Of a stretch of 64,000 nt of DNA, positions 2,657-64,000 are shown piece by piece; position 1 is the stretch's first letter; every line of letters starts with the position of its first letter. The translations under genes and the position numbers were made by a program. The stretch covers positions 62,001 through 126,000 of the forward strand of contig JASAMV010004766.1 of NCBI GenBank assembly GCA_030248065.1, written 5' to 3'. A model generated the notes under the pieces. The model had not been told where the DNA came from, made no database searches, and saw only the letters and a program-made list of their open reading frames with translations. Source of the stretch: Rhynchonema sp. JSB1_4 (taxonomy: Eukaryota; Nematoda; Chromadorea; Monhysterida; Xyalidae).

Positions 2657-2660
2657 AATA

Positions 2661-3861: not shown

Positions 3862-4298
3862 TGGATCAATTGTGCTCGTGCGAACATTATCTTCGAATAT
3901 TACTTGATTCTGATGCTCGTCTATTCAATTCTGTAATTCGATACGCCCATGAGGATTTGATTGCATGCCTGTGCGCATGTGCATTGAACATTTTGCTGCG
4001 AAACGTGAACGTTTCCGATAAAGAGCTTGCCACAATCAAACAACATCGGAGAGATTTGTACAGATTAGCTGACAAAACTCAGTCGCGCAAACTGAAGACA
4101 CGATTTCTGGTTACGAACAACGGACGAAATCTGGTTCAGCTTATTCTGCCGCCAATTTTGCGGGCATTTGACAACGGCCTGTTCAAATATGTCGAATGTG
4201 AGAAGTTACGCCCTGGTCGAGCCTCAAGTGCTCAAGGCACTGCGACGAAACGCAAAACACTTTGGAAACCTTCAACAAAACCGAGTCCTACAGCTTGA
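3861..4298 (+). CDS. Small basic Polinton late protein with hydrophobic C-terminal segment
   Basis: A 145-residue ORF starting on the last base of the ATPase stop. The N-terminal half is cysteine-rich. The middle is basic (repeated K/R between residues 60 and 95). It is followed by a glycine/asparagine turn and a hydrophobic stretch (LVQLILPPILRAF). This layout, a basic helix region then a hydrophobic patch, recalls a small conserved protein that sits beside the ATPase in many Polintons and adintoviruses. The last 37 codons overlap the next ORF in another frame, so the true protein may effectively end near the hydrophobic segment. Function is not established; a virion or membrane-active role is inference. 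Confidence 0.55.
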   Translation: MDQLCSCEHYLRILLDSDARLFNSVIRYAHEDLIACLCACALNILLRNVNVSDKELATIKQHRRDLYRLADKTQSRKLKTRFLVTNNGRNLVQLILPPILRAFDNGLFKYVECEKLRPGRASSAQGTATKRKTLWKPSTKPSPTA

Positions 4299-14859: not shown

Positions 14860-17265
14860 TTGACAAATGTAAAAAAGCTGAGTTCAAAACCAAACTCTAA
14901 TCAATACAATCTCGCCCAGGTCATCACTGAACCGACTCACAAGGGTCGATTAATTGATGTTACATTTGTGCCTGACCATCTGGCGGTACAATACGAACTC
15001 CTTGCACCAATCGAAAACTACCATCACATGACATCAGTAACATTCGATATTTCCAGCACCCAGTCTCCATCCGACGCTCCGCTGCGCCGTGTCTGGCAGT
15101 ACAAGAAGGCCGACTGGGACTTGATGAACAGTTTGCTCATCGCCTACAACCTGGTAAAACAGGTTGTTGATGCAGTAGACGTGAATCAGGCCTGGGACGC
15201 AATCAGTCAAACGATCGTTGGTGCTGCTACGAATGCCATTCCTGTCCGATCCGCTCGCCCAAGACCACAGAATGACCAGCCGTGGGTGACGCCGAAGGTC
15301 AAGCGGCTCAGTCGGAAGAAGAGCGATCTGCACAGGAAGTGGAAACAGACCGGTGACAAAGGAACGTATGAAAAGTACTTTGTTTTGCGTGAGCAGTCAA
15401 GGCAGGCCAACAGGGCAGCCAGACGTGACTATGCCATCAAAACGTTTGGTAAAATAGCTCATCTGTCTGACTACTGGCAAAAGCTGAATAAGTACACGGG
15501 ACGGAGCAGCACAGAACAAGTGTCTCTGGCCAACACTGATGGGGAGTGCGTTGCTGACAGTGCTGGTTTGGCTGCACTGTTATCAACACATTTCTCCAGT
15601 GTATGGAACGTCAATGACGTTGAGGCACTGGTTCTGAACTCAACCGGTCCCGTGCCACCCGAATGGTACACTGATGTTTCACACGTGCTTTACAGTCTCA
15701 TCACAGCCGACCCTCGCAAGGCCAGTGGCATCGATGGCATCACCGGCGAAATGCTCAAGAACTGTGCCCACGTGATCGCTCCGGCTCTCGCTGTGCTCAT
15801 CAATCGATCGATAGACGAACACACGTGGCCGTCGGGTTGGAAACGGGCCGTTGCCACTGCCGTGCCGAAAGTCAAGACCCCTCAAAACCCATCGGACTTC
15901 CGCCCCATCTCCAAATTACCGCTGTGCTCAAAAATCGCTGAGAAGCACGTTCGAAACATCCTGAACGGGTTCATTGCCCCCAAACTCTCAGAAACGCAGT
16001 TCGGTTTTCGTGGAGGTCGGTCTACAACTGAGGCCCTGTTGCATTTCAATACTACAGTCACTCGTGCTCTTGATGTTTCAAATTCTGTTGTTGCTGTGTA
16101 TTTTGATGTTCGAAAGGCTTTCGATACCGTTCCTCACAATCTATTATTGCGTGTGTTACAAGACGATTTCAATGTTCCACCCGATTTATTGTTGTTGGTT
16201 CAATCCTATTTGTCTGATCGAACCCAATGTGTGAATGTAAATGGTGTGTGTTCTGATTTCTTGTCTGTTCTCTCTGGTGTGCCGCAGGGCAGTGTATTAG
16301 GACCGTTATTGTTTCTCGCATACGTCAACTCTGTTGCAAAACTGCATTTCTCTCCGTGTTCACGTATTATTCTCTATGCTGATGATCTGGTACTGATTCA
16401 CTTCATGTGTACACCTGACTGTGAAAAGCATTTGCAAGAGGATGTGAACTTGATTGTCGAGCACTTCTCCAAACACAAACTTCTCTCCATTAATTCTACC
16501 AAAACAAAACTCCAACAATTTGCTCGCTCAAGTTCATGTCCCGCTGTCCCTGCTATTGTGATTGATGAATGTCTGATTGATGTTGTCGATGCAAACAAAT
16601 ATCTGGGTGCTGTTATTGATTCCAAGTTTGATTTTGGTCTGCATACTACTGCCACGTCTGTGAAAGTGAAGAAAATTGCTGGTTCATTGTACCGTACCTT
16701 TCGTAATGATCTACCTGTGTCTGTCATGCGTTATCTGTATCAAACCTTGATTTGCTCTGTCATGTACTATTCGTGTGAGGTGACCTATCCTATTCATGAC
16801 TATTCACGTAATTTGTTGGAAAGAACACAAAAATCCATTATTCGCATGTTCTCTGGCAATTTTGATCGGTCTGTGTCATATTCGCAGTTGTGTTCAATGT
16901 TTGGTGTTGATTATGTGGGTGTCACTGTCATGAAACGTCGTCTGAGATTGATGCATTCTTATGTTCTTGGTATTCGTGCTGCTCCTGTTGACTCTATTTC
17001 GTTCATTTCTGATTCCAATTCTCGCTCCAGTTCTCGTCTTAATCATTCTCGTGCCATTTGTATCCCACGTGCTAAAACTCATATTCTCGCTACCAGTGCT
17101 ATTGTTATCATGTCCCATCTTTACAATGCTTTACCTGATTTTGCTGTTTTCCTGCGAATGGGCACATTCAAAGGAGTCATTCGTTCGCAAAGCTTGATTG
17201 TTGAATTGTTGTACAAATTGCGATTGCTGCCAGTGAAATTTATTCCGTCCGTGTGTGAAATGTAA
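14860..17265 (+). CDS. CR1/L2-like LINE ORF2: endonuclease C-terminus and reverse transcriptase
   Basis: Open frame of about 800 codons without a convincing ATG (it opens at a TTG), so the element is 5'-truncated. It begins in the C-terminal part of an APE-type endonuclease (QVITEPTHKGRLIDVTF). It continues through the basic linker (WVTPKVKRLSRKKSDLHRKW) into a complete RT domain with RPISKLP, FGFRGGRSTTEA, FDVRKAFDTVPHN, SGVPQGSVLGPLLF, YADD (about 16375-16386) and KYLGAVID. No RNase H domain follows. The Jockey-superfamily order and missing RNase H point to the CR1/L2 group. The 3' UTR runs to 17456 with AATAAAAAACTTGAACTT at its end, where it joins satellite DNA. The frame is intact, so the insertion is young or the sequence recently duplicated. 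Confidence 0.88.
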   Translation: MTNVKKLSSKPNSNQYNLAQVITEPTHKGRLIDVTFVPDHLAVQYELLAPIENYHHMTSVTFDISSTQSPSDAPLRRVWQYKKADWDLMNSLLIAYNLVKQVVDAVDVNQAWDAISQTIVGAATNAIPVRSARPRPQNDQPWVTPKVKRLSRKKSDLHRKWKQTGDKGTYEKYFVLREQSRQANRAARRDYAIKTFGKIAHLSDYWQKLNKYTGRSSTEQVSLANTDGECVADSAGLAALLSTHFSSVWNVNDVEALVLNSTGPVPPEWYTDVSHVLYSLITADPRKASGIDGITGEMLKNCAHVIAPALAVLINRSIDEHTWPSGWKRAVATAVPKVKTPQNPSDFRPISKLPLCSKIAEKHVRNILNGFIAPKLSETQFGFRGGRSTTEALLHFNTTVTRALDVSNSVVAVYFDVRKAFDTVPHNLLLRVLQDDFNVPPDLLLLVQSYLSDRTQCVNVNGVCSDFLSVLSGVPQGSVLGPLLFLAYVNSVAKLHFSPCSRIILYADDLVLIHFMCTPDCEKHLQEDVNLIVEHFSKHKLLSINSTKTKLQQFARSSSCPAVPAIVIDECLIDVVDANKYLGAVIDSKFDFGLHTTATSVKVKKIAGSLYRTFRNDLPVSVMRYLYQTLICSVMYYSCEVTYPIHDYSRNLLERTQKSIIRMFSGNFDRSVSYSQLCSMFGVDYVGVTVMKRRLRLMHSYVLGIRAAPVDSISFISDSNSRSSSRLNHSRAICIPRAKTHILATSAIVIMSHLYNALPDFAVFLRMGTFKGVIRSQSLIVELLYKLRLLPVKFIPSVCEM

Positions 17266-27640: not shown

Positions 27641-29960
27641 GCTTAGATGAAACCCAAAAGGTTTCAGGGTTAACCTTGAGATCTAGGTTCCCATATTTTT
27701 TATAACTTTTCGCACCTCTATACCAGGTTTCGTCTTGACCACACTAAATTTTCTCGTATTTTTGTCCATAATTTATTTATCCGCTCTTGCAAGCTTCTTC
27801 TTTTATACTTCTTCATTTTTTTCAAACGGACTGAATGTTTTATTTGAGGTTGTTCTGTGTGACCACCGCGTGTGTGGAGTGATAATTATAAATGTGATAA
27901 TAGATTGTAAATCTAATAATAGATTACATATGTGCAAATTTTCGTTTATCGTTGGGACTCACCTGTGAGGCACAAAATGCGATTGGGATTCTACACTTTA
28001 TGCAAGAAAAACTTTCTCTTTTGAAATTCAGTCACAATAGATTTTATCAATTGAACCCCGATTTATTCATTTATTTTTTTCTCATCTTGTATGGCCAACA
28101 GATGAGCTAAAGTCTAAAAAATCCAAAATCCAAACAATCAAATCCATCCAAATGCTATTTTCTGTTCCTTTTGCATTTTTATTGCTGCCTGTTCCACCAC
28201 AGTAGAAAATAAATGCCACGTTCTTGAGTGTTAGCGCTATGTGGCTGGCCAGAGAACGAAGTGAAAAATTTCTGTGTGAATTATGCTTCTGTGTGATGTT
28301 TTTTAATTAGCCCCAAGACAAGTCTTGTTTTGTTTCTTCCTGGCATATTATTTTTTCCTTGCTTTTTTACCATGTATTATCAGTACCTTGTTCTTGAAAT
28401 GTTGAGCGTAGTGCCAGAAAATACTTTGGATTTCAAACCGTACACTTCATTGTCATCATCGAATTACCTAGCTAATTCTGGTATCATTCTGGCAGCAACC
28501 AATTGCTCAATTTTGCTGGGCTTGTGCTTCGCTGATTCAATTGTTCAACAGCAATGTGTTTTTAACTTTGCAGAAAAAAACAGCTCAGAAAAACATCAAA
28601 GAAATATTTTGTCATTTTCATTCATGCTCTTATTTGGAAACAGTGCGCGCGTTATATTTCCCTCCGCTCCTTTGTCATTGTGTTACAATAGGAATTGTTT
28701 CATGCACGTATCGGTTTTTTCTTTCATTTTTCTTTCTACTTCGTGGTATAACCCCGTTTTTTGTTATTTATTTTGGTTACTATTTCTTTTGTATATTGTC
28801 GTTCTTCTACCGACGTGGTGTGATCCTGCGATTTGGTAAAAGCCCCATTTTCTACCGTTTTTCCTATGTATCATGTGTTTTCGTGCTAATATTTCGTTCC
28901 TCCGCAGCTGTCGAAATCCAGCTGTCGGCTTGTCCGACAGCTCCCTGCGTCGTATTCTCGATATTATCGTTATTACATATTACATTTCTTCGGTATTTCG
29001 TGTGTGAGTGGCCGATTTGGAACCGCGTACGAGCCGCTGGTTCACATGTGGTGAGCCTCGACAACGATTGGACAACTTGCAGCGCGACAAGCGACGAAGG
29101 AGTGGTCGTTTGTAGAGTGTGGGGGCGACACGAAATCGGCATTTTGAAAGATCAGCTGAGCCGAAAGTTTGAAAGACTGTTTTTTGACGATTTTGGACCA
29201 GTTTTTTTAGCTTTGAAGGGGCAGTTCTACTTCTCTCTGCTTTCTACGTTCTGGAATCCGATTCGACATCGTACCTTACAACTAGTACAACAAACAAAAT
29301 ATAATGTTCGTACGAATTGCTGCAGTTTGAAAAAATAATAAAAATTGATATATCTCGTCTGGGGGATTCCCCATAGTTAAGGATTTTTGCGAACTTTGTC
29401 AAGGTGATTGTGTTGTGTTGTGACGACTTGGAGACAGCAACGACATATCAAAAGAACCGCCGTAGGACGCTCTATAAGCCGATACCGGACTCATCGCATC
29501 AACTTCAAAATTGACGATTTCCGACCACTTCGCAAATTCGACAAAAAAGTCAACTTTTGATCTCAGTTTTCCGGCGGAAACGACCAGTAAAAGTGATTGT
29601 GTTTTGTTTGACGCTTGGATAACATCAGTCTCTAATTATTCAGAGTGCGCTTGTAAAAAGCTTGGAGCGATTCGGACCAATTTCGACGAAAATCCGATTT
29701 TTCCGAGATATCCACAAAAATTTGACATCCGTGCTGAGCATCGGTCAACGCGTCCCGTTCTACAATATATTGATTTTTGAGTGTGGATAAAGCTTGGCAC
29801 GTGCGAAATAAAGATCAATTGTGCCAAGACCAGTGATTTCTATCGTATTTTGTGTTTTGTTTGTTCTGTGTGACCATCGAGTGGACCTTGAGAGTGACAT
29901 CGCCGGCGATCTACAACTGTATCAGCGCCTCAAAAGCAACGCAACAGACATCGCGTCGTG
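27641..29960. other. Uncharacterised arm segment with long overlapping frames
   Basis: Contains two plus-strand open frames, 28330-28839 and 28541-29338 (169 and 265 codons), plus a 92-codon frame on the other strand. All three are kept in the right arm. The predicted proteins are rich in F, C, Y and S with no domain I recognise. The composition (T-rich on the plus strand) can produce such frames by chance. It ends with two AT-rich blocks around 29340 and 29780. It could be the 5' region of an LTR element leading into the zinc-knuckle ORF at 30050. Confidence 0.4.
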
Positions 29961-31084: not shown

Positions 31085-32989
31085 TTAGAAACTGTTAAGG
31101 TTTACGCTTTGCTGTAGTAAATACAAGAGTCCGTGCCCAAAATTCACTGGGCGCTTGTCATGATCACCGGTTCGACTGTTCGACCGTTCCGCCCGATTGT
31201 TGCCATCGATCGATTTCGAACTGTTCGCACCGTTGCACTGACTGTTCGCGTTCGTCTCACCGTCACGCACTTTCGACCAGTTGTTGGGTGCCGATTTCGC
31301 CAGCTGTCGTTCGAATCGCCGTTGTTGTAGCTGTCGATCGGATGGAGAACAGAACGTCAAGTCCTGTCGCTGCTTGGTCTCCAGCAGCTCTGCAATGACT
31401 TCTGCAAGAAGGTGAATTTTGTCTTGCTCTGCCGCACCGCCTACTTGACTGGATATCTTCGACTCAACCGAACCGAAAATCTCTGAGCCGACCGTATCGG
31501 ACTTATTTGACTCAACTGAACCACCAAACGACTTTGAGTCAACCGAATCGTCTTTCGCTGCACACACTACCGCCGCCTCGTTGTCAGGCGCCTGCTCGTG
31601 CACACCTGATTCTCGATCACAAACATCAACGAAATTGTGCGAACGCCGTTGCCCGCGACATTTGTGGCTGCTGCTCCGTTGTACGCCACCGTCCTTGGGA
31701 GCAACAACCACAGGCACCGAAGAACAGCCGATAGTTGGTGCCTGTGTCTGAATATGGTAGTTTTCACGACCAACCGATTGTCGACTTGAAGAACACCGCT
31801 GCCCACATTTAACCGATGGTGCCCGGGGCTCAGATTTGACCGACTGAGCTTGCAGCTCAGGTTTGACCGCACCAGTAGTAACGTGTGTACGTATTGAAAC
31901 ATCACCGACCGCTTTGTGTGCGCCGAGAGAGGCCGCATGCGGTTTGATGCCGATTTGCGGACTCGTCAGCCCGCTGCCGACGCATTTGGGAATTGCCGAA
32001 ATCCCAAAATTGCGTTTTTGTTCGGTTGTTGCCGCAACCGATTGCCGATATCGAAGTCCCTCCGTGGGATTCGATTGCCGCCGAAGCCGATGTCCTTCCG
32101 TAGGACCCTCCCCCTTTGACCGAAAAGAGCGAAGCGGGGGTTTGGCTTTTGTCGCGCCAAATACATTTGGGCATAATGCACTCGGATGCCCAAAATCGCG
32201 ACAGTACGTACACAGACTGGGCGGCTTTTTGCATTTAGCCGCGATGTGCTTCGACCCCAAACACGAAAAACATCGACCCAAACGTTTCAAGATGGCTTTG
32301 CGGTCATTCAACGTAAACACAAGCTTGCACCCCGAACTGTAGTGGCTCTTGTCACAGAATAAACAATGCAAAGCATCTTTCGAGGAAACCGACTGAGCTT
32401 TGAGCTCAGAGTTTACAGTGGTGGTACCCAACGTAACCTCTGGACTGGTCACTTGTTTGCCGAACGATACCATCACCGATGGGGCTAGCACAACATTTGA
32501 ACCAAATTGTGTTGTCACCGCGTCTCCGCGTGGCTGTTGGTCGTCAGTTGCAGGTGGCACTTTACGTTGCACCGTAGATCCGCCGGACTTGAGATCGGAA
32601 ATGCCGGGACCGTAGGCCGTCAGCTGTGGACTGGAACACTCGGGAAACAATCGTTTAGAGACCAATACCTTGGTCTTCAATGAGATGAGCACCTTATGTG
32701 ACTCGCCAAGTACATCAAAAATGCGACAGCACTCGGCGTCCGATGATTTGGCTACCCCAAATTTGACGGAAATAGTTGCTTCCCTCTGCTTTTTCAAAGC
32801 ATCAATAAGACCACTAGCCTTCGCCAGTTTCACCGAAAGCTCACCAGCAACGTCAGAACGTGAATCAGCCGTTGTTGACAACATCTGGTGCATCAGCGCA
32901 TCCATACCGTACATCCAGTTTGTGGCGTCTTTCACAACCAGTTTGAGTTTGTCGCACTCGCTCAGTGCGTTCCGAAGGATTGTGGCCAT
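31085..32989 (-). CDS. gag: BEL/Pao-type Gag polyprotein
   Basis: Intact 634-codon frame from the ATG at 32989. The N-terminal ~130 residues are helix-rich (LSECDKLKLVVKDATNWM ... KVLISLKTKVLVSKRLFP). The centre holds the BEL/Pao-style array of cysteine motifs at about residues 210-275: CLFCDKSHYSSGC, then RCFSCLGSKHIAAKC, then CTYCRDFGHPSALC. The remainder is low-complexity, Q/S/R-rich sequence with repeats (AQSVKSEP). Gag would build the particle and bind element RNA. The frame ends 205 nt before the 3' LTR without a pol gene. The element is therefore non-autonomous but with an unbroken gag, which suggests recent selection or recent insertion. Confidence 0.88.
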   Translation of the reverse strand: MATILRNALSECDKLKLVVKDATNWMYGMDALMHQMLSTTADSRSDVAGELSVKLAKASGLIDALKKQREATISVKFGVAKSSDAECCRIFDVLGESHKVLISLKTKVLVSKRLFPECSSPQLTAYGPGISDLKSGGSTVQRKVPPATDDQQPRGDAVTTQFGSNVVLAPSVMVSFGKQVTSPEVTLGTTTVNSELKAQSVSSKDALHCLFCDKSHYSSGCKLVFTLNDRKAILKRLGRCFSCLGSKHIAAKCKKPPSLCTYCRDFGHPSALCPNVFGATKAKPPLRSFRSKGEGPTEGHRLRRQSNPTEGLRYRQSVAATTEQKRNFGISAIPKCVGSGLTSPQIGIKPHAASLGAHKAVGDVSIRTHVTTGAVKPELQAQSVKSEPRAPSVKCGQRCSSSRQSVGRENYHIQTQAPTIGCSSVPVVVAPKDGGVQRSSSHKCRGQRRSHNFVDVCDRESGVHEQAPDNEAAVVCAAKDDSVDSKSFGGSVESNKSDTVGSEIFGSVESKISSQVGGAAEQDKIHLLAEVIAELLETKQRQDLTFCSPSDRQLQQRRFERQLAKSAPNNWSKVRDGETNANSQCNGANSSKSIDGNNRAERSNSRTGDHDKRPVNFGHGLLYLLQQSVNLNSF

Positions 32990-33633: not shown

Positions 33634-36094
33634 GGCGACTGCTGTTTACACACCAACACACAAACAAACGGCACTAAAACAAACAAAGCCCACGTAGGTT
33701 TTGTGGTCGACGCTGAAAATAGGTGAACTGTGACGTACACGAAGATTGAAGTCGCGACGCGATGTCTGTCGTGCTGCGTTTGAGGCGCTGATACTGTTGT
33801 AGGTCACCGGCGAAGTCACTCTCAAGGTCCACTCGACGGTCGCACAGAACAAACAAAGCACAAAATACGATCAAAAGCACTGATCTTGGCACAGATAATC
33901 TTTATTTCGCACGTGCCAAGCTTTATTCACACACAAATATCAATATTTTGGCGAATGAGACGCGTTGACCAATGCTCAGCACGGATGTCAAATTTTTGTG
34001 GATATCTCGGAAAAATCGGATTTTCGTCGAAATTGGTCCGAATCGCTCCAAGCTTTTTACAAGCGCACTCTGAATAATTAGAGACTGATGTTATCCAAGC
34101 GTCAAACAAAACACAATCACTTTTACTGGTCGTTTCCGCCGGAAAACTGAGATCAAAAGTTGACTTTTTTGTCGAATTTGCGAAGTGGTCGGAAATCGTC
34201 AATTTTGAAGTTGATGCGATGAGTCCGGTATCGGCTTATAGAGCGTCCTACGGCGGTTCTTTTGATATGTCGTTGCTGTCTCCAAGTCGTCACAACACAA
34301 CACAATCACCTTGACAAAGTTCGCAAAAATCCTTAACTATGGGGAATCCCCCAGACGAGATATATCAATTTTTATTATTTTTTCAAACTGCAGCAATTCG
34401 TACGAACATTATATTTTGTTTGTTGTACTAGTTGTAAGGTACGATGTCGAATCGGATTCCAGAACGTAGAAAGCAGAGAGAAGTAGAACTGCCCCTTCAA
34501 AGCTAAAAAAACTGGTCCAAAATCGTCAAAAAACAGTCTTTCAAACTTTCGGCTCAGCTGATCTTTCAAAATGCCGATTTCGTGTCGCCCCCACACTCTA
34601 CAAACGACCACTCCTTCGTCGCTTGTCGCGCTGCAAGTTGTCCAATCGTTGTCGAGGCTCACCACATGTGAACCAGCGGCTCGTACGCGGTTCCAAATCG
34701 GCCACTCACACACGAAATACCGAAGAAATGTAATATGTAATAACGATAATATCGAGAATACGACGCAGGGAGCTGTCGGACAAGCCGACAGCTGGATTTC
34801 GACAGCTGCGGAGGAACGAAATATTAGCACGAAAACACATGATACATAGGAAAAACGGTAGAAAATGGGGCTTTTACCAAATCGCAGGATCACACCACGT
34901 CGGTAGAAGAACGACAATATACAAAAGAAATAGTAACCAAAATAAATAACAAAAAACGGGGTTATACCACGAAGTAGAAAGAAAAATGAAAGAAAAAACC
35001 GATACGTGCATGAAACAATTCCTATTGTAACACAATGACAAAGGAGCGGAGGGAAATATAACGCGCGCACTGTTTCCAAATAAGAGCATGAATGAAAATG
35101 ACAAAATATTTCTTTGATGTTTTTCTGAGCTGTTTTTTTCTGCAAAGTTAAAAACACATTGCTGTTGAACAATTGAATCAGCGAAGCACAAGCCCAGCAA
35201 AATTGAGCAATTGGTTGCTGCCAGAATGATACCAGAATTAGCTAGGTAATTCGATGATGACAATGAAGTGTACGGTTTGAAATCCAAAGTATTTTCTGGC
35301 ACTACGCTCAACATTTCAAGAACAAGGTACTGATAATACATGGTAAAAAAGCAAGGAAAAAATAATATGCCAGGAAGAAACAAAACAAGACTTGTCTTGG
35401 GGCTAATTAAAAAACATCACACAGAAGCATAATTCACACAGAAATTTTTCACTTCGTTCTCTGGCCAGCCACATAGCGCTAACACTCAAGAACGTGGCAT
35501 TTATTTTCTACTGTGGTGGAACAGGCAGCAATAAAAATGCAAAAGGAACAGAAAATAGCATTTGGATGGATTTGATTGTTTGGATTTTGGATTTTTTAGA
35601 CTTTAGCTCATCTGTTGGCCATACAAGATGAGAAAAAATAAATGAATAAATCGGGGTTCAATTGATAAAATCTATTGTGACTGAATTTCAAAAGAGAAAG
35701 TTTTTCTTGCATAAAGTGTAGAATCCCAATCGCATTTTGTGCCTCACAGGTGAGTCCCAACGATAAACGAAAATTTGCACATATGTAATCTATTATTAGA
35801 TTTACAATCTATTATCACATTTATAATTATCACTCCACACACGCGGTGGTCACACAGAACAACCTCAAATAAAACATTCAGTCCGTTTGAAAAAAATGAA
35901 GAAGTATAAAAGAAGAAGCTTGCAAGAGCGGATAAATAAATTATGGACAAAAATACGAGAAAATTTAGTGTGGTCAAGACGAAACCTGGTATAGAGGTGC
36001 GAAAAGTTATAAAAAATATGGGAACCTAGATCTCAAGGTTAACCCTGAAACCTTTTGGGTTTCATCTAAGCAGCGCTGCCTCAGAGGCGCTCTG
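33634..36094. other. Right-arm counterpart of 27641-29960
   Basis: Reverse-complement copy, including the 265-codon (34375-35172) and 169-codon (34874-35383) minus-strand frames and the 92-codon plus-strand frame at 34571-34849. No family recognised. Confidence 0.45.
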
Positions 36095-51444: not shown

Positions 51445-53502
51445 TTGAAAAACATTCCGATACATCCGAACCAACATGCTTACCAGGCCGGTAAATCCAC
51501 AGAAACAGCACTTCACTGTGTAGTTTCTAGATTGGAACAAGCGGTCATGGTAAAAAAACAATACTGTATTGGAGCTTTCATAGATGTGGAGGGAGCGTTT
51601 GATAACGCGCCCTTCGCGCTGATCAAATCTGAGCTCAAACGGAGACATGTTCCCAGCCCTATCAGAGCGTGGATTGCTCAGATGCTGGAAACAAGAACAG
51701 TCCAGGTTGAATTAAATGGTGAAAAATTAGGAGCTATAACCACAAGGGGATGCGCACAGGGAGGAGTCCTGTCACCCCTGATCTGGTGTTTAATAATGGA
51801 CAAGCTTATTCTTGAAATCTTGACCAAAACCAACCTCTATATCCAAGCCTATGCTGATGATGCAGTCCTGCTAGCAAGCGGCACTGATCTTTCGCAACTA
51901 TGTGCTGATATGCAGGAAGGACTAAACGTTGCAGCTACATGGTGTCACAATAACGGGTTCAGAGTGAATCCTGATAAAACAGAAGTGGTCGTTTTTACCA
52001 AAAAACGACTACGCATCGGCATACAGCCGATAAAAATTGGAAACAAAGTGATAAAAATGACAGAAACCGTAAAGTTTCTGGGCATAACCATAGATAGTAA
52101 GCTAACCTGGCGTCAACACATAGAAAAACAGTGTAAAAAAGCAACCATCAGTTTGTTTCAATGCAGAAGGATTGCTAGTGGAAACTGGGGATTGCAGCCA
52201 AGAGTATGCCTCTGGGTGTATAACTGTGTCATAAAACCTATGCTGCTATATGGCTCGGTCGTATGGTGGCAAAGAACGAACTTAATCACTGTGAAAAAGC
52301 TGCTAGGGAAGGTGCAACGCCTAGGCTGCCTTTTCATTACAGGTGCTTTCAAATCAACACCGACGGCTGCGCTTGAAACATTACTGTGTCTGGCGCCGCT
52401 GGATCTGGTCGCAAAATCACAAGCGATGCTGTGTGCGTCGCGGCTGGTAAACACAGGTATGTGGGATACGGTGACTGGGGCAAAAACTAGTCATACCTGC
52501 ATAGTAGACGAAATAGCCGAGAATGTTCCAGTCCTGGGTATGCCCAGGGACAGGATGGTTAAAAAACTAAATTTCCATGATGCCTACAAAGTAGACATCA
52601 GAGACAAAGCGTTTTTCGAAGAATATGGTGCCAATTGGGTCGAAAATCATGCGGGCATTAAGGTTTTTACCGATGGTGCGAAGCACATGATAAATGGGTG
52701 CACTGGAGCGGGAGTAGCGCTTCGGGACACTAACAAAAGCTTCGGCCTGGGGCAAAATGCAACTGTCTATCAGGCTGAAACATTTGCCATTCTGAAGGCT
52801 GCAGAACAGCTGCAGAGCCAACTAATTAGGCGCAACGAAATAACGATCTTCAGCGACTGCAGATCTGCTCTACAATCCCTAAAACGATGTGAAACAACAT
52901 CGAAATTGGTGCAAGAATGTCGTGATAAGCTGAACGAGGTTGGTTCAGAGAATCACTTGTCCTTGAAATGGATACCGGGGCACTCGGGCATCGAGGGAAA
53001 CATGAGAGCGGATGAATTGGCCAGGAAAGGCCGGTACAAACCGCTCCAAGGACCAGAGCCAGCCCTAGGTTTGGCTTCGAGCGTATGCAAGAGGAGCGTA
53101 AAACGCTGGCTCCTGGAGGGCCTGCAAAACAAATGGATGTCTGAGTCCAGATGCAGACAGAGCAAACTGTTTATTAAAAATGTTGATATCTATAAAACAA
53201 AGGCCCTGCTGTCCCTAAACAGACAACAACTCAGGAACATGGTGGGGGTGTTCACGGGACACTGTGCTGTGAGTAAACACCTGCACATAATAGGTCTTGC
53301 GGACAGTCCGACCTGCGATGCATGCGGGCTCGATGCAGAGTCAGCCGAACATTATATCTGCACATGTCGCACGTACAGGCATATCCGAGCAGAATTGCTT
53401 GGTGGTCAAACAGTGACTTGTGAAGATGTACAAGACATGAAAGTGCAGTATATTGCAGCTTTTATAAAGCGAACAGAGCGTTTCGAACAAGCAGAGGAAT
53501 AG
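51445..53502 (+). pseudogene. LINE ORF2 remainder: RT, RNase H and C-terminal zinc motif
   Basis: Open for 685 codons with no proper start, because the 5' part is inverted. RT motifs: HAYQAGKSTETALH, FIDVEGAFDNAPF, GCAQGGVLSPLIW, YADD (51850-51861), and KFLGITIDSKLTW. An RNase H domain follows: KVFTDGAK (about 52663), AETFAILKAAEQL, FSDCRSALQSL, and WIPGHSGIEGNMRADELA. A C-terminal CDACGLDAESAEHYICTC zinc motif ends the protein. RT plus RNase H places it in the I/Jockey-related group (I, LOA or R1 type) and sets it apart from the CR1/L2-like LINE at 14860. The frame is intact, so the insertion is young. Confidence 0.9.
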
Positions 53503-54939: not shown

Positions 54940-55060
54940 TCGGGTCAGTGAATTAATAGAGGCCCCCCCCCGGAATAGAGCCCCCTGTAATAGAGCCCCC
55001 CAAAATGGGGTCAGTGAGTTAATAGAGCCCCCTTCTATTTAGGTTTTTACGGTAATCTAT
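54940..55060. repeat. ATTAATAGAGCCCCC repeats
   Basis: Four to five short units such as GGGTCAGTGAATTAATAGAG and AATAGAGCCCCCTGTAATAG. They resemble the subterminal repeats of the TA-flanked element at 50942-53964 and may be a remnant of it. Confidence 0.65.
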
Positions 55061-55092
55061 TTTTTGGTTGAAAACTCATTGTTTTCCATGAA

Positions 55093-55372
55093 AAAGTCGT
55101 CAGATAGACAATAACTGATCACTTACTTGCCGAATCCGTCAGAAATTTTAGTATTTTTGACAAAAAAATCCGTCACTTCAGAACAGAGGTCGCAATCGGG
55201 CCGGCCCGACCTCGGGCCGGGCCGGGCCGGAGATTTGGAGGGTCGGGCCGGGCCGGGCACCCCGGCCCGAAGCTTCTGAAGCGACTTATTTTACTGAAAA
55301 AGTAGGGTTTTTTGTCAAAAATACTAAAATTTCTGACGGATTCAGCAAGTAAGTGATCAGTATTGTCCAGTG
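55093..55372. mobile_element. Foldback element with GGGCCGG core, just upstream of SCAMP
   Basis: Long terminal inverted repeats (CTGATCACTTACTTGC, then TCAGAAATTTTAGTATTTTT on both sides in opposite orientation) around a GGGCCGGGCC core with ends CAGAGGTCGCAATCGGG and CCCGAAGCTTCTG. The core looks like a separate MITE inserted into the foldback. It lies about 215 bp upstream of the SCAMP start codon. Confidence 0.8.
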
Positions 55373-55585
55373 GTGTGGCTACCCAGGCGTGCAATCAACC
55401 ACCAGAAAGGCCTGCAATCAACCTACCTGCAGTTTTCTATACTTAAGCGTGGATGTGGACTTAGGTTGTAAACTCTTAAACTCGAGACGAGATCTCCACT
55501 CCCTCCAGGTGTTCTTTTCAGTTGTTGGATTGGATTCTCAACAACGCAAACAAAGGAGAATCGTCAGTCAAGCAAACGGTCGAAG

Positions 55586-58500
55586 ATGGCAAATTTGAAC
55601 GACAACCCATTTGGAGACCCTTTTTCGGTTGGTTTTTTACCATGTTAGTTTACTTTGCATTTGGAGGTGCCAAAGAGAAAATAAATTGCCGGTAATTTTT
55701 TCGGGCAACTTGTGTAATCGAAAATTACTGGGTAAAACAGACTACAAACGCACTTGGAGCTTACAAACTGCTCATTTAGAGCTGTTTAGCACTGATTTAC
55801 GGTGGTTTTGACAACATTATTTCGCGACGTTGGAAAGTTTCTCGGGAATTTTTGAAAAAACCGTTTTTTCCAAAAGTTGTCACCTGGGAAAATTGCCGGG
55901 AAAACAAAAACGTATTTTTCCTGGCCTCGGAAAAAACGGTTTTTTTCGAAAAAAAGCTTTTTTTTCGGCCTGCAAGTATAGCTGGCCTGGATTGTCAGAG
56001 TCGGGGCAGGTGTCGCAATCAGGGCCGCGCCGGGTTTGTGCCGGCTGGCTTAAATCTCCGCCCCGGCTCGAACCAAAAGCCCAAATTCGCCGCCCAATGG
56101 CGAGCGACCTCTCATTTGGGGACGATTGTGCCGGCCGTCCGAAAAGACCCGACATCACCAAAATTATTGAAAAATTGACGGTTGTTGGTCTTGTGTTTTG
56201 TGTTGTTAGCTGTTCTAAACCGCGACATTATCATCAAAAACCGTCACCTTTGAAACAAAAAAATTGGCCTCAGCGACGGTTTGTAAAGTAAAACTACGCC
56301 AACACGAGCCCGATTTCGGAGCTGGCAAAATGGTGAAACATTCATGACGTGGCTGCTGATTTGGGAAACGTTACACGTTGTGGCATACAACGTGGAGCAT
56401 GATGATTTTCTCTTTCTTTGCGTTTTGCAAGTTCACCACCTCCGAAATCGGGCTCGTGTTTGCGTAGTTTGCCTATATATAAAAATCGACACAAAAAAGG
56501 TGTGGTGACAAGACTACGCCAACACGAGCTCGATTTCGGAGTCGGCGAATCAGTGAAACATTGATATGTGGCTTGGCTGCTGATTTGGGAATCGTTACAC
56601 GTTGTGGAATGCAACGTGGTGCATGAGGGGTTTTTCGTTCTTTTCGTTTTGAGCACACAGCACCTGCGAAATCGGGCTCATGTTGGCGTAGTTTGGCTTT
56701 ACGTCGGGCCGAGTGCTCTTGTGGGAAGTGAGCGAGAGCGGAGTTTGAAACTCTGGCCGCGCCGTGATGTTCGACTTTGTGATCGGGCGGGGCGGCGGGT
56801 CAGCGTCGGGCCAAGTTTCAATTGAACGACAGTTGCCGTAAGCCCGTAAATATTCAGCGCCAAACTTCGGGTCTGTTGAGCGCTGATCATGGGCCATAAT
56901 TTGGCACATGTTTTCACGTGAACAGAGAAATGCTCATTTTTTTTATTCATATTTCAGGATCCAAGTGTGCAACAAGCAGCTCGTGCCAATCAGGGCACTG
57001 GTGTCGATGAATACAATCCGTTTGCGGACAACAATCGGCCGGCTGGAGCTACGGTGGGTTCGACCGGCTTTTTGTGTGACTGAGCACGATTATGGTGGGC
57101 AAGTGAATATTTTTTCGACCTTGAATGCCCAAAAATCGCGCGTAATCATGCACGAAAAGGAAGTTTTTGGCCAAGGTGATGTAAAGTGCTCCTTTCTTGC
57201 CCATTTTTAGGTAAAATTGTATGAAAAGGACACCCAATTTTCTACTTTTGAAGTGAGTATGTATCTGGTATCTTGCACGACAAGGCTATCTTCCTGCACC
57301 GTGATGCTGTTTGCTAGATACGACCTACTATTGCCAGTTAGCTCTTTGTTATCGTATTATACGTACACAGCTCTCCCTTCTCTTTACATGCATGTCAGCT
57401 TTTGAACAGGTTTAGAAATCCCGTCCGGAATTCCATAATTATCGAGAGTTTCGTTAAAGACTCTTGGATTGGATTTGTAATAATGTCTTTATTTTGGGTA
57501 CTGAGACAGTCAGCTGGCCGTTTTTGGGTCTCGCAAGCCCAAGACCAGTAACAAAAAAACACCAGCTCAGCTTATTTACTAACTTGCTTGATCATGAGCT
57601 GCCTGTTTTATGTCCACTGCATACAATACAATACGCGCTCGCACAAAACGTCACTGTGTGCGTGCACATACGTAGTAGCTCCTGTGCCTGTGTGTGGGAC
57701 TATGGTGTATTTACTTTTGCACAGAACTGCTTTGCTGGCGGGTAGCTTTCTAGCTATTGCTCTCCAAGCCCGTACCAAAGTAATATTCCGGGGAGCGTGT
57801 ATACATACATACACGTGTGTTCAAGTTCATGTGAAGCTTAGCAAGCAGCACGGTAAATCTTGCACTGGATTGTGTTTAGCCCCGAAGCATCAGATCAGGA
57901 ACGCATGATATCACTTCATGTGCTTCCGTGCACCATTACTTTCAGCTCCTGCCGGTCTGCCTTTATTTCGAAACTTGTGCCTGTGGCACAGCGCATCAAA
58001 GTTTTTTTTATGAATAGCGTTCTTGTTGCCAGGCGCTGTACAATGTGTTTTTTCTGTAACGTACTTACTGGTTGCATTGCACAAGCTCTCTATTTCACAG
58101 TTTACAAGGGACTTCTTTACACGGCAGACTAAGCCACTTTTTTCAAAAATGAACCCGGTACCGCTTGCACATATACAATCCAGGTTCGAATTGCATCTTT
58201 CCCGCCAATTTACGAGTGCAACCTAACGATCCTCAGGTGCTATACACAGACAGTCGCCAGGAAGCACAACAACACTAATCCCAGTCAAACATAAATCCAA
58301 CATATTCATTCACCGAAAATCGCAGGGTGTGCGCGGCGCGAGCAACCCCCCACCGGTGATGCAACCGAGCGCGCAGCCACCGTCCTATCAAGCCAACGCC
58401 GCACAACGACCTGGTGGCAATCAGGATGACCTGCTCAGACGTCAGGAGGTATTTTCTTGGTTTGGTTTTTTGTTATTATTTTTGTCTTATTTTTTTAAAT

Positions 58501-61500
58501 TTTATCATCCCAGGAACTCGAACGGAAAGCGGCCGAGCTCAAACGCCGCGAGGAAGAGCTGGAACGACGCGCACAGCAGGGCGGTGGAGGTTGGTTGTTT
58601 ATTAAGAGTTATGACTTATGAAGCTGAATTCTCGATAGCGATAGAGAGCGACCATCTTATTGGGGAACCTCCCCTACCCCTTCTTATAGTGCATATTCTG
58701 TGAACGTTATTCTGGTCCCTAACTTGCCGTTAGTCTCCCACTCGAAAGGTGACTTGATGAATATTCTTTAAATTGAGCGAAAATGCCGGGTCCCAATTAT
58801 GTGGAAAAGAACGCACATTTTTCACTAAAACGTATTTTGTCGTTTTCGCGCAGAAAGAAAACAATTTTCACTTTCTTTGCAGCGCCAGCCAACAACTGGC
58901 CCCCGCTGCCCTCTTTCATCCCGCTGCAGCCGTGCTTTTACATGGACATCGAAGTGGAGATACCCAGTGAATTTCAGAAGACCGTCCGTTACGTCTACTA
59001 TCTATGGCTAAGTCAGTTGAATTCTTGCTGAGTTTTATTCAGAATCAAAAGACTAAGCTAAACAATGAAGTTAACTCAAGTTTGTCGACTAGATTGGGCT
59101 CGATCAGATCGAAAATTAGGATTTTCACTGGCGTAAAAATGTTTGTACGAACTTTTACGCTGGTCGAAATGAGAACTAATTATGGAAGCTAAATAAACCA
59201 AACAAATAATTAATATTTTTTGGGGAACGTAGAGTGCCAGTGGTAGAACGGTTGATGTCAGCTTTTTACTACCGTAGATTCCCGTCTAGAATGTGCTGCA
59301 TGGAGGCCACGGACAAAGACCTCTATCGGGAATGGTTGCATACGATGTGGTTACTGTAGCTATTCTACGATCGGCACTCTACGGTCCAAGTTTTTTTGCA
59401 CAAAACAATTGCTCAATATATTGCAGTTTACGTCCTGACGCTGCTGTTGAATGTTCTGGGCGCAACGATCTACTGGTTCTGGGGCGCGGCCGACACTATG
59501 TCCGGTGTTGGCCTGTTCTTTCTCACATTGCTGCAAGTGGCCATCTTCACGCCATGCTCGTTCCTGTGCTGGTATCGACCGCTCTACAAAGCGTTCAGGC
59601 GAGTGCTTTGCCTGTTCGGGTGTAAACTTTGTTTGGGGCTGGGGGGTTTGTCATTTCTTTGGTAAACGCGCAGCAGGCGCAGTTTGTAAAAAAAAACTAA
59701 TTTGTGGCGCGTCATTGTGTAATTATGTTACAATTTTATTACAATTATGTTGTAATTTTGTAACTATGTAATTATAACTAAAGAACTCACTAAAACTCTG
59801 ATTTGAGCAAGAAAACCATGAGCCCAATGAATTACGACGTTTTAGAGACGACAGTTCGTTCAATTTCATGGTCTACTTCTTCATGTTCATGATACACATA
59901 CTGTTGATATCAGTGCAAGCCATCGGGCTATCGCACTCCAGCGGTGCTTGGTCCGTAAGAGATATTGTACTGTACATCGACGTCGTACTTGTATTTGTGC
60001 TGCACCCACCAGTCTGTAGCGTGGCCAGGATTAGGATGTCGAATTCGGTGATCGGATCGGATCTGTGTTTTGGTCACGTGACTTTTTGTATTGAATATGT
60101 TTCTAGGGTTACTGTTGCTTTAATTTTAAATCACGTGCAGGTTGATCATTTGAGGTGTTACCAAACAGATAACGAATAACCGCTATGCTGTTCGACATCT
60201 GTGGCCAGAGTAAATCTCGAAATGCCCTCAATTGTTAAAAATAAAGCCAAAAGTCCAAGACAAATCAAATCCGATTCGATCATCGAGTTTCAAGCATGCA
60301 CATACGTGAATTTATAGTGCGGTGCCGTGTGAGTGATGGTGGCAAGCTGGCTGATGTTTCACATGCACAATATGTGTCGATGTTGTGTTGTTGTGCTCTT
60401 TCAGAAACGATTCGTCCGTCCAGTTCGTCGTGTTCTTTTTCTGCATGTTTTTCCAAATCATATTCTGCTGTCTATTCGCTATCGGCGTGCTCGGATGGAG
60501 TTGGTAAGTGGGCTGGTATTCAATGTTTCACTTCACTCACTGTTTTGGTACTTTGATGTTTCGTATTAGTTCGTGTGTACTGGTGGGCTTTTGGTTGCTT
60601 TGGGTTTGGTGTCAACATAAATACGTTACTGCAGTCCGACTTGCGGTGACTTGAGTGAACGTTTATGCTGTGCAGACAAATTTTCGTATTGAGCAATTTG
60701 GAATGTTCCTATCCGGGCTTTTTTGACATTCATATTAGGGTTAGAGAGATGTCGGGTGTCGGGTGCCAAAAAAGTGTAGGTGTCGGGTGTCGGGTACCCC
60801 CAGATGTCGGGTGTCGGTTTTCTTGGGACCCGACAGCCGACACCCGACACTTGCGGTTCAAAACATCAGTTTTGCTGAGATAAGAATTTTGAGAGAATAT
60901 TTTCTTCGAACCAAATGTTTCCGAAGACGCAGAATGTGACATTTTGGTGTTTATTTCTTTTTGAAAATACTTGAATTCAGTAACTTGAGCCAAAAAAATG
61001 CGCTAATGATGCAAATGAGCAAAAAATTGCCTGTTTTTGGTCCAAAAACGGGTGTCGGGTGTCGGTTTTTTTGCAACTGTCGGGTGTCGGCTTTTTTTCT
61101 CAGATGTCGGGTGTCGGGTACCCCACGACCTCTAACCCTAATTCATAAATCTCACTTTCGATTCAGAATTGGCCGTCTTTTCGCGAAGTACAAATCGCCA
61201 AAATGTGCAATACCACACCACTTAGTTGCTCAATATGAAAACCCGATAAGTACGAACGAAACGATTGATTTCAAGATACACAATTTCTCTGAAATCGGTC
61301 GAGGTCGTAAAAGCATGATAGAATGCGTCCTCAAGTTATTCTAAATTGATTGAGCACTTGCCCCCGCCCATATTGCAGCGGTTGGTTGAACGTGTCGACG
61401 CAGTTCAGCCACGGCAAGATCTTCGCCGGCATCGTGATGCTGTTGCCCGCTGCTGGATTCACATTCTGCGCTGTCGCTATGATTCTCGTGTTGATGAAGG

Positions 61501-62813
61501 TTAATTTGATTATGTGTTTATCTCTGTCTGTCTTCTGTGATTGCCGTTTTCGTGAAATTCACCAGTCTTCATGTCTGAAAACCGTTGACCGCCAATTTGC
61601 AGCTATGACCAGACCACGACTGCGATTTGACAATGGAAATGTCTGTTTTGCCCTTGTTTTACGATAGGGTTTGTTGGAGCATTTATTTCGACCAGCGTAA
61701 GAGGCACAATGAACAACTGTTACGCTCGTCGAAATTAGTGCCCAAACTCTATCACTAAATTCGGCTCAAAGTTGTAGTGCACAACCGCAGTCCTGGTCGT
61801 CCTAGCCACGAGCGCAACTAAACACGATAATATAATCATGGTGTACGCAAACCACACCAACATGAGCTCGATGTCGCAGCTGGCAGAGTAGTGAAACATT
61901 CTGGCGTGGCTGCTGATTTGGGAAACGTCACACGTTGAAGAATACCAAGTGGATATACTGGCAGGCGGAAAAAAAACCGGTTTTTTTCCGAAAAAAAAAC
62001 CGAAAAAAAACCGTTTTTTTTCCGAGACCCGAATACTTTTCCATTTATTTTTCCGTGTGTACCTTTCTAAAAAAATTTTTTCATTTCAAAAAAATAACAA
62101 CAAATATATTTTAAAAAATAAACAAACAACACAAAAAAAAACAAAACTCCTACCACTCAACACACTCTTCCCTCAAAATTTACAATATTTATTTTTTTTA
62201 TTTTTAAAAAAAATTTAAACTTTATTCCGACACCCGAATACTTTTCCATTATTTTTCCTGGTACCTCACAGAAAAAGCACAAAAAAAAAAAGAAAAAGGC
62301 ACAAAACACGGCCCAAAGGGCCAAAAGGGAAACCAAGTCCCCCCCCCCAGCCCTCCCCACAACACAAACAACAACAAAAAAAAAAAAAAAAAAACCCAAA
62401 AAACCAAGTGGAGCATGATTATTTTCTCTTTCTATCCGCTTTGAATACACACCATCTTCGAAATTGGGCTCGTGTTGGTGTAGTTTGCCTTTACATACCC
62501 GTTCCAAAAGTGCTGCAACTATTTTGCATGATAATACGGGTCATAAAAATTTTGTCGATATCGAATCGTTAGTGGTCCTGGTCACAGTGCTTGCCCGCAA
62601 AGTTGATTCAACACTGAAAAGTGCAACCCTGAATGAATTCATCAGGTGCACGGCCTGTATCGTTCGTCGGGTGCGTCATTCGCCAAGGCGCAGCAAGAGT
62701 TCCAATCTGGTGTGATGAACAACCCGGATGTACAAAGTGGTATGGCCAGTGCTGCTAGTGCGGCGGCGCGAAGTTCGTTTAATGCCGCGGCAGGGGCTGG
62801 CGGGCGATATTGA
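55586..62813 (+). CDS. Scamp: Secretory carrier-associated membrane protein (SCAMP), nine coding exons with alternative exon 7
   Basis: SCAMPs are four-pass membrane proteins of post-Golgi and endosomal vesicles. Exons: 55586-55627, 56958-57053, 58326-58448, 58514-58589, 58883-59011, 59427-59598, exon 7 (59846-59950 or 60405-60503), 61379-61499, 62646-62813. All phases join; the product is 343 or 341 residues, normal for the family. The N-terminus has NPF motifs ([16 protein letters not shown]) that bind EH-domain proteins. Exons 3-4 give a proline-rich part and a coiled coil ([19 protein letters not shown]). Exons 5-6 hold NNWPPLP, the first two membrane spans and the 'E peptide' [10 protein letters not shown]. 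Exons 7 and 8 give spans 3 and 4. The C-terminus is [19 protein letters not shown] followed by an alanine-rich tail. Introns are GT-AG except intron 6, which starts GC. The ATG follows an AAG context; the promoter was not located. Confidence 0.95.
56290..56472. mobile_element. Foldback/MITE family F, copy 1 (SCAMP intron 1)
   Basis: About 183 bp with terminal inverted repeats ACTACGCCAACACGAGCC / GGCTCGTGTTTGCGTAGT (extending through CCGATTTCGGAG). Interior GGCTGCTGATTTGGGAAACG. Confidence 0.88.
56512..56694. mobile_element. Foldback/MITE family F, copy 2 (SCAMP intron 1)
   Basis: Same orientation and length as copy 1, separated by 39 bp, with about 80% similarity by eye. The rest of intron 1 (55628-56289) has a degenerate GGCCCG-type block near 56000 and no other feature. 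Confidence 0.85.
57054..58325. other. Scamp: SCAMP intron 2
   Basis: 1.27 kb, GTGGGT...GCAG. No repeats or ORFs of note; short runs of ACATACATACACGTGTG. Introns 4 and 5 (58590-58882, 59012-59426) likewise show nothing recognisable. Confidence 0.6.
59846..59950 (+). CDS. Scamp: SCAMP exon 7a (alternative third membrane span)
   Basis: 105 nt. Completes the arginine codon left by exon 6 and continues [20 protein letters not shown], the expected SCAMP pattern after the E peptide. Ends in TG before GTCCGT. Phase in and out equals that of exon 7b. The donor is weak compared with GTAAGT at 7b. Confidence 0.88.
60405..60503 (+). CDS. Scamp: SCAMP exon 7b (alternative third membrane span)
   Basis: 99 nt, encoding [20 protein letters not shown] and ending ...GVLGW plus a split codon, then GTAAGT. 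Homologous in position and pattern to 7a but clearly diverged. Joining 7a to 7b would make TG+A, an immediate TGA stop, so only one can be used at a time. Skipping both keeps the frame but removes a membrane span. Confidence 0.9.
60735..61141. mobile_element. MITE with TTAGGGTTAGAG ends (SCAMP intron 7)
   Basis: About 407 bp with ends TTAGGGTTAGAG / CTCTAACCCTAA, flanked by TTCATA on both sides. Subterminal arms are GTCGGGTGTCGGGT runs facing each other. The centre is AT-rich. No coding capacity. Confidence 0.85.
61846..62490. mobile_element. Foldback/MITE family F, copy 3, split by an insertion (SCAMP intron 8)
   Basis: Left half 61846-61954 and right half about 62402-62490 match family F (GGCTGCTGATTTGGGAAACG; AAATTGGGCTCGTGTTGGTG). 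The insert 61955-62401 is bounded by ACCAAGTGG on both sides, an 8-9 bp target duplication. The insert begins with inverted AAAAACCGG/CCGGTTTTT arms. Its right half is A- and C-homopolymer sequence of doubtful quality. Confidence 0.8.
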
Positions 62814-63854
62814 TTGATTTGGAATATGGAATTATGGATATGATGGGCGATTGATTGATTTTTATAGAGTTGTGGCTTTGGCACATCACCGCGAGTGTTT
62901 TGTATTTTGTCTTCTCATTGTTGTACGCTCTGTTTGTGTCCGCTCTCTTTCTGGCTCTCAACAATGTTCTTTTTTATTTCTATTGAAAATTGAATTTCTA
63001 TTTTAATTATGATCCTTTTTTTGTTTTCTGCGCATGAATGAATTCATTGTCATTACGGTGTACTGCACTGCTGTTCTGTTTGTTGCTTGTTCGATGTTTC
63101 ACTGTGTGTATGTGAATCTTTATTGGATCGCTGTGGTTAATCAGATTTTAACCTGAACCTATTTATGCGAGTTCATAGAAAGTCACCTATTTTGTCCTAT
63201 CATGTTTTCTTCCCAATATTCTGTGAATTTTGTGTTATTTATTGAGAAAAAACGTTTATAATGACCACCTGCTCCTGAATCACTACCACGAACGCAAATA
63301 ATGATCTATGGATCAGCACACAAAAAAAAAAAAAAAAATGTCTGCTTGGTAGCATCCCAGAAGCACCAAAAACTCCACCCTATTTTTTTCTTTTCATTTC
63401 ATTCTCTCCCTGGGTTCTCCTCACACCCAACAGTATCAGCTTCAGCCCCCTTCGCCAGCTTCCCTAATCCCCTCCCTCCCCCACCATATAAAAACAAAAG
63501 ACAAAAAAAACACAAAAAAACAAAAACACGAAACAAACCATCAAAAAAACAAAATAATAACAAAAAACAAAAAAAAAAATAATCATACAAACACCATATG
63601 ACCACAGGGTGACGACAACAAAAAAAGCCAGACAACGAAACGAACACAGAACGAAAGCGCCCCCACCAAGACACCCCCCGATAGCCAAACACCTTCAGCT
63701 ACCCCTCTGCCGCGAAGCCACCAGCCACACCACCCCCAGCGAACATCAGACAAAGCACACAACCGAGAAAAAAACACCATACATGGCCAGATAGCGGTGC
63801 GGTCAGTACTTAAGAGCGGTGCGGTCGGTGGAGCGCGATGTGCAACCCCCATTT
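62814..63854. other. SCAMP 3' flank and low-complexity sequence
   Basis: 62814-63300 is the likely 3' UTR and flank; I saw no clear AATAAA. 63300-63800 is A- and C-rich with long homopolymers and no coding signal. Confidence 0.5.
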
Positions 63855-64000
63855 TGGTGGAGCGCCATGTTTTTTTGTGGAGCGCCATGTTTTTTTGTGG
63901 AGCGCCATGTTTTTTTGTGGAGCGCCATGTTTTTTGTGGAGCGCCATGTTTTTTGCGGAGCGCCATGTTTTTTGTGGAGCGCCATGTTTTTTTGCGGAGC
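63855..64000. repeat. 20-21 bp minisatellite GTGGAGCGCCATGTTTTTTT
   Basis: Seven tandem units from about 63855 to the window edge, varying only in T-run length and GTGG/GCGG. The array continues beyond the window. Confidence 0.95.

Follow-up and report, generated by a model that had tools for sequence, protein, structure and literature searches.

Structure of the SCAMP gene

The window, by which we mean the whole 64,000-nucleotide stretch of DNA analyzed here, carries a complete SCAMP gene on the plus strand at positions 55586 to 62813. SCAMPs function in exocytosis and membrane recycling. In the spliced frame, the gene opens with coding exon 1, which contains an NPF repeat (55586 to 55627), followed by exon 2 with a second NPF (56958 to 57053), exon 3 (58326 to 58448), exon 4, which encodes a charged stretch (58514 to 58589), and exon 5 (58883 to 59011), which was also recovered with an exon profile. 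Exon 6 (59427 to 59598) runs to the E peptide and ends at a GC donor, CAG/GCGAGT, where the slash marks the exon boundary. It is followed by exon 7a (59846 to 59950) and, after an intron of 454 nt (59951 to 60404), by exon 7b (60405 to 60503), both of which encode span 3. Exon 8 (61379 to 61499), which starts with CGW and encodes span 4, was located in the spliced frame and with the exon profile, and the coding part of exon 9 (62646 to 62813) ends with the stop codon TGA. An earlier, sequence-only reading of this DNA had proposed a SCAMP gene with two tandem versions of exon 7, bounded by an exon 6 end at 59598 and an exon 8 start at 61379. The identity of the gene and every one of these exon coordinates proved exact, and each copy of exon 7 is SCAMP-like by both Pfam and a span-3 profile.

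The predicted protein has the hallmarks of the family, namely, N-terminal NPF repeats and an E peptide between spans 2 and 3. It matches Pfam PF04144 with 191.4 bits when exon 7a is included, 187.9 bits with exon 7b, and 126.5 bits with neither (cut-off of 27). Span 3 is hydrophobic in both versions (best 19-residue Kyte-Doolittle mean of 2.2 for 7a and 2.8 for 7b, with hydropathy run on span 3 alone), and both SCAMP forms would have a four-span topology. The swapped segment lies immediately 3′ of the E peptide in the spliced frame, as had been noted; the role of this peptide is treated in PMC8721997.

Exons 7a and 7b have identical phases. Each completes a split arginine codon (AG/A), and each ends with TG, which exon 8 completes to TGC (cysteine). 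Their lengths of 105 and 99 nt are both multiples of three. Splicing of exons 6-7a-8 yields a protein of 343 amino acids, and splicing of exons 6-7b-8 yields one of 341 amino acids. When 7a is joined to 7b, a TGA arises right at the junction, and the 6-7a-7b-8 product ends there at 247 amino acids. The suggestion that this stop codon is a built-in safeguard of exclusive use holds in one direction only: double inclusion is blocked, but double skipping stays in frame because both exons are multiples of three, giving a 308-amino-acid product without span 3. The TGA itself had roughly an even chance of arising, since 7a ends with TG and the arginine codon can be completed only if 7b starts with A or G, and it is not a sign of design.

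When 123 SCAMP proteins were combined into a span-3 profile, it picked out 7a (E = 2.5e-13) and 7b (E = 5e-12) among the 345 open frames of 55001 to 64000. The remaining rows had E values of 0.59 or worse, so the profile search found no third copy of exon 7 above noise in this interval; neither did it find second copies of exons 5, 6, and 8 above noise there. The two exon 7 peptides are 41% identical over 29 amino acids (BLASTP E = 6.4e-8) and show no likeness at the DNA level. Exons 7a and 7b are thus confirmed as a real tandem exon duplication rather than chance open frames.

Splice sites of exons 7a and 7b

Splice sites were scored with donor and acceptor matrices built from 22 junctions of two HSC70-type genes and EF-1 alpha plus six SCAMP introns (n = 28); 25 reference junctions had been reconstructed in the same genome, and 3 were dropped as unreliable owing to wrong exon pairing or poor alignment. 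The reference donors have G at −1 in 26 of 28 cases, G at +5 in 25 of 28, and T at +6 in 23 of 28, with positions +3 and +4 loose. The acceptor of 7a, CGTTTTAG, scored 1.8, which is under all 28 references, and its in-frame donor, TTG/GTCCGT, scored 4.6 and exceeds 2 of the 28 real donors. The acceptor of 7b, TCTTTCAG, scored 6.5 (above 7 of 28), and its donor, TTG/GTAAGT, scored 7.0 (above 10 of 28). Exon 7a is therefore the weak member of the pair, and 7b is stronger without being outstanding.

The sequence GTAAGA lies four bases 3′ of the 7a donor and would be a frame-shifting alternative to it. On plain U1 pairing it could outcompete the in-frame donor, but it is disfavored as the site used by 7a by the genome's own matrix, where it scored −1.3 versus 4.6. 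No acceptor for exon 8, whether further upstream or displaced, that could restore the GTAAGA frame was seen by eye. The GC donor of exon 6, which is noncanonical, is common to 7a and 7b splicing, and is present in both haplotypes (see below), scored 3.7 and exceeds a single one of the 28 references.

A second haplotype copy of the locus

A profile search of the genome (204 Mb, 5747 contigs) returned eight SCAMP matches at two loci, on contigs C2918 and C5237. The two loci are nearly identical, and we read the C5237 locus as the haplotype copy of the locus in the window. Both haplotypes retain 7a, 7b, their phases, the flanking splice sites, and the double-inclusion TGA. The copies of 7a differ at 2 of 105 bases, both of which change the amino acid (Ile/Met and Ala/Ser), the copies of 7b at 0 of 99 bases, and the other SCAMP exons at 3 of 928 bases, so that two of the five differences in coding sequence fall in 7a. 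Introns other than intron 6 differ at 73 of 5151 aligned bases (∼1.4%), which is close to the rate in 7a; in intron 6, an insertion and a misaligned stretch add 43 more differences. The excess in 7a over the other exons involves few changes (Fisher P = 0.083) and is weak evidence that 7a is currently under less constraint than they are. Comparison of 59692 to 59805 with the sequence L009 indicated by eye that the intron 6 copies differ by an insertion in L009 with an inverted repeat; the insertion is likely to be a small transposable element.

Origin of the two copies

A SCAMP protein set was assembled by scoring 7991 candidates, of which 1579 matched; the best 120 matches were retained, and 123 proteins were used. 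The motif searched for in this set was present in 122 of the 123. Among the matches listed, P0003 is by far the closest protein, with 67% identity to isoform a, and it lies on a contig of 1240 bases that includes the entire coding sequence and is hence transcript-sized. Outside exon 7, the window and P0003 are 77% identical. The span 3 of P0003 is of the 7b type and is the sole sequence of this closest relative. A region search with 7b returned five matches, of which P0003 is the only one of the 7b type, the other four being ordinary by eye. In a tree calculated without exon 7, the window and P0003 are sisters (100/99) inside the nematodes (100/100), and they adjoin, with modest support (80/60), a group containing Toxocara, Acrobeloides, Ditylenchus, and Aphelenchus/Aphelenchoides, all of which we take to be Chromadorea. 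The host is a nematode, probably of an early-branching lineage.

In a tree of exon 7 peptides (38 rows), 7b groups with P0003 (98/98), while 7a is placed together with 11 nematode exons in a group of 12 (99/96), and a topology test rejected sisterhood of 7a and 7b (p-AU = 0.022). The alignment behind these results has only 33 columns, the branches of 7a and P0003 are long, and the bootstrap values had not yet stabilized. A span-3 profile made from 122 SCAMPs, with P0003 left out, scored 71.5 bits for 7a, 59.3 bits for 7b, and 57.3 bits for P0003. By raw identity over the 123 proteins, 7a and 7b are alike (mean of 43% each, with 47% for exon 6 and 37% for exon 8); 58 proteins are closer to 7a, 46 are closer to 7b, and 19 tie. 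The profile and the tree, and not raw identity, thus favor 7a as the ordinary version. Because 7b groups with P0003 and 7a with ordinary nematode exons, we conclude that the duplication is older than the split from the species of P0003 and that 7b is the derived copy. We also conclude that 7a has stayed SCAMP-like since before that split, which would amount to long-term maintenance.

The residues that set 7b apart were counted in 118 proteins, with P0003 and the alternative-type proteins P0054, P0057, P0058, and P0059 set apart from the 123. A glutamine late in span 3 is found in 106 of the 118 and is kept in 7a; the position is phenylalanine in 7b and P0003. In addition, DSSF has become DSSV in 7b, and three cysteines have been gained.

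The same segment is swapped in bivalve SCAMPs

An all-pairs scan of the 123 proteins for pairs that are nearly identical except in exon 7 yielded five pairs. Three are from Crassostrea/Magallana (P0031 with P0054, P0058, and P0059, across two species names), and two are from Mytilus (P0057 of M. edulis paired with P0038, also of M. edulis, or with P0105 of M. galloprovincialis). Pairs from Ostrea and Saccostrea came from a further search with the oyster alternative as the query. Differences are concentrated in the span-3 segment: 10 of 32 residues inside and 0 of 310 outside for Ostrea edulis X7/X8, 12 of 32 and 0 of 360 for Saccostrea echinata X3/X4, 7 of 32 and 0 of 301 for the Mytilus edulis pair, and 10 of 32 and 1 of 310 for C. 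angulata X6 versus M. gigas X7. P0055/P0128 of S. cucullata was rejected as a clean pair, with 12 of 32 differences inside but 50 of 320 elsewhere, the latter number matching the 50 residues by which their lengths differ. In the Ostrea, Saccostrea, and Mytilus edulis pairs, the longest contig is equally long in both members. Crassostrea/Magallana clusters with lgn-source contigs hold both span-3 forms (P0031 on one side and, on the other, P0054, whose longest contig has 1531 bases, and P0058, whose longest contig has 1402), which is consistent with expression of both forms.

The bivalve isoforms resemble 7a and 7b in that they swap the same segment between KAFR and GW, with flanks that are identical or nearly so, and the oyster alternative resembles 7b in lacking the span-3 glutamine, which is replaced by methionine in the oyster and by phenylalanine in 7b. 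In contrast to the nematode gene, the oyster models swap span 4 too, and the Mytilus alternative retains the glutamine. Since it does so and since 8 of the 118 ordinary proteins also have methionine at this position, loss of the glutamine is no rule. The exon layout of the bivalve genes is deduced from proteins. Because the oyster alternative P0054 falls among non-nematode exons in the exon 7 tree and 7b among nematode exons (separation of 76/94), the bivalve duplication was probably independent of the nematode one. Overall, the comparison favors genuine alternative use of the two exons, given an old duplication, the retention of both copies, and bivalve isoforms that swap the same segment.

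Span 4 showed variation of its own in molluscs. In the oyster models P0130 to P0132, the span-4 segment is swapped (GWINSL... versus GI(F/I)NG... with an insert), and P0126 (M. gigas) and P0130 (C. angulata) differ at 31 of 48 residues inside this segment and at 1 of 320 in the rest. A Mya arenaria model, P0140, seemingly has three tandem span-4 copies in a row. Some of the SCAMPs P0117, P0125, P0144, and P0147 (gastropod or unnamed) have a span 4 of the GIIAGL, GIIGGL, or GVISGL type where others have GWINGL, and this is probably the oyster span-4 alternative.

How one exon might exclude the other

Two means of exclusion were ruled out, steric exclusion by the 454-nt length of the 7a-7b intron and incompatible U12 splice sites by eye, as there is no U12-type donor sequence. 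Competing intron pairing gave no clear signal in the three intron pairs compared, where 2, 9, and 6 of 60 shuffles equaled or exceeded the real pair in stability; for pairing of 7a with 7b, all 60 shuffles did so. The duplex program used for intron pairing returned whole-length duplexes.

In Caenorhabditis elegans, exons 7a and 7b of unc-32 are mutually exclusive and are regulated by UNC-75/CELF and RBFOX; 7a, with its weak sites, is thought to be skipped by default, and the downstream 7b is readily used, while in neurons UNC-75 binds UUGUUGUGUUGU in the 7a-7b intron and represses 7b (PMC3585155). At 60380, the SCAMP 7a-7b intron contains ATGTTGTGTTGT, one mismatch away from the UNC-75 site and present in both haplotypes. 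This match makes up the first 12 bases of a GU-rich element on the plus strand, ATGTTGTGTTGTTGTG (60380 to 60395), just upstream of the 7b acceptor, and ends 13 bases upstream of exon 7b. It was the best match in the last 60 bases of 33 introns (9 SCAMP introns and 24 reference introns, the latter from 24 of the 25 reference junctions with the 3 unreliable ones not removed), the next best having two mismatches in the references and three in SCAMP. The element was noticed post hoc, and the window holds four UNC-75-like matches with at most one mismatch versus 1.24 expected. We regard 60380 to 60395 as a candidate CELF/UNC-75-like regulatory element, which is the best mechanistic lead that the analysis offers. 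In a difference from unc-32, UGCAUG is absent from the plus strand of the 7b-8 intron, where a single GCATG occurs at 61313. In the whole window, TGCATG occurs 103 times on both strands versus 57 expected, and many of the occurrences follow one another at regular intervals between about 5.9 and 10.9 kb.

The SCAMP pair thus resembles unc-32 as a tandem exon pair in a nematode membrane-protein gene with a weak upstream copy and a better downstream copy; it differs in belonging to another gene and family and in being known here from DNA. The C. elegans gene let-2 alternates exons 9 and 10. The GC donor of SCAMP exon 6 recalls the GC-AG intron that reportedly regulates let-2 (Farrer et al. 2002, as cited in PMC7242645), in which the weak GC donor is required for regulated splicing. 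The GC donor of let-2 is in intron 10, whereas that of SCAMP lies upstream of both alternatives.

Interpretation

We consider it likely, on the whole of the evidence, that 7a and 7b are a mutually exclusive functional pair. The span-3 exon was duplicated in tandem before the split from the closest sampled relative, after which 7a retained the ordinary sequence, including the span-3 glutamine, while 7b diverged, exchanging the glutamine for phenylalanine and gaining three cysteines. The pre-mRNA would be spliced as 6-7a-8 or 6-7b-8 to give two four-span SCAMPs that differ in span 3 only and may differ in function. With its better splice sites, 7b would be the probable default. Exon 7a would probably be expressed where an activator represses 7b, possibly a CELF/UNC-75-like protein bound upstream of 7b, and mRNAs containing both exons would stop at the TGA and be degraded.

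The strongest competing explanation, which we nevertheless think unlikely, is that 7a is a dying relic, an ancestral exon superseded by 7b that is no longer spliced in frame and has lately been freed from constraint. It would account for an acceptor weaker than all 28 references, a donor that outscores just 2 of 28 and has GTAAGA four bases 3′ of it, two nonsynonymous differences between the haplotypes at a rate similar to that of the introns, and a closest relative whose sole sequence is of the 7b type. However, 7a is open, in phase, and free of stop codons in both haplotypes, it scores higher than 7b against the family profile despite the age of the duplication, and weak sites are also seen in a regulated exon such as unc-32 exon 7a (PMC3585155). 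Considerably less probable is the idea that 7a is a poison exon, whose inclusion in 6-7a-7b-8 would lower SCAMP levels via nonsense-mediated decay without any 7a protein being made. The TGA at the 7a/7b junction is present in both haplotypes, as this idea predicts, but a poison exon would not need a span-3 sequence, matching phases, and a length that is a multiple of three, all of which 7a has, and the corresponding bivalve forms have been deposited as complete isoforms of full length. Mis-assembly, or one exon being a chance open frame, has nothing in its favor and can practically be dismissed, short of a single assembly error common to both contigs, as the same arrangement is found on both C2918 and C5237 and the exon-profile E values are 2.5e-13 for 7a and 5e-12 for 7b.

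The functional pair that we favor would share homologous exons, the enrichment in transmembrane proteins, and convergent events across phyla with published tandem-exon pairs. The type of mechanism is known, and SCAMP is, as far as we found, a new gene for it. The sequence-only reading knew of no description of the arrangement for SCAMP. This stands for papers, as titles and abstract openings, which for the largest set of matches were those of 30 out of 715, yielded no published account of a SCAMP span-3 exon pair in a search with most subscription journals outside its scope, but not for databases, where deposited molluscan isoform models already hold an equivalent swap. The word SCAMP is absent from the main texts of two tandem-exon papers, and “splice” does not occur in a fly SCAMP paper.

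A broader proposal, which is possible but which we hold to be rather doubtful, is that span 3 of SCAMP is a convergent switch. An early nematode lineage and the bivalves would each have duplicated its exon on their own. One version in the nematode and in oysters, although not in Mytilus, would replace the conserved intramembrane glutamine with a hydrophobic residue, and the choice would be made by tissue-specific splicing, of the CELF type in the nematode and perhaps neuronal. We rate the proposal slightly lower than we otherwise would, given that the glutamine is still present in the Mytilus alternative. If it is true, a vesicle protein would alternate between two membrane cores directly behind the E peptide that regulates fusion. 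To our knowledge, the contribution of the SCAMP membrane core has been little explored, and the exchange of one span with the rest identical would be a natural experiment on its role. That oysters and mussels show a parallel swap suggests a purpose rather than the accident of one animal, and the molluscan isoform models in the databases would represent a splicing switch that we found described in no paper.

Other features of the window

The rest of the window contains sequences resembling mobile elements. By eye, the stretches at 1391 to 2656 and approximately 2660 to 3860 resemble a cysteine protease of the adenovirus type (SDSSCTCGLFAIYVLDFY) and an ATPase of the packaging type, and they may represent a Maverick/Polinton element; Pfam assigned no family to 1391 to 2653 or to 4168 to 4926. 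Reverse-transcriptase open frames occur at 11227 to 12972 (minus strand), 14860 to 17265 (plus strand), and 51445 to 53502 (plus strand). Pfam found RVT_1 in 11230 to 12972 and in 51445 to 53499, the latter with RNase H as well, and by eye 14860 to 17265 is a near letter-for-letter repeat of 11227 to 12972 on the opposite strand. A gag-like frame with CCHC, to which Pfam gave no family, lies at 31085 to 32989 (minus strand). Identical-looking open frames of 265 amino acids lie inverted at 28541 to 29338 (plus strand) and 34375 to 35172 (minus strand) and perhaps form a large inverted repeat on either side of the gag-like frame.
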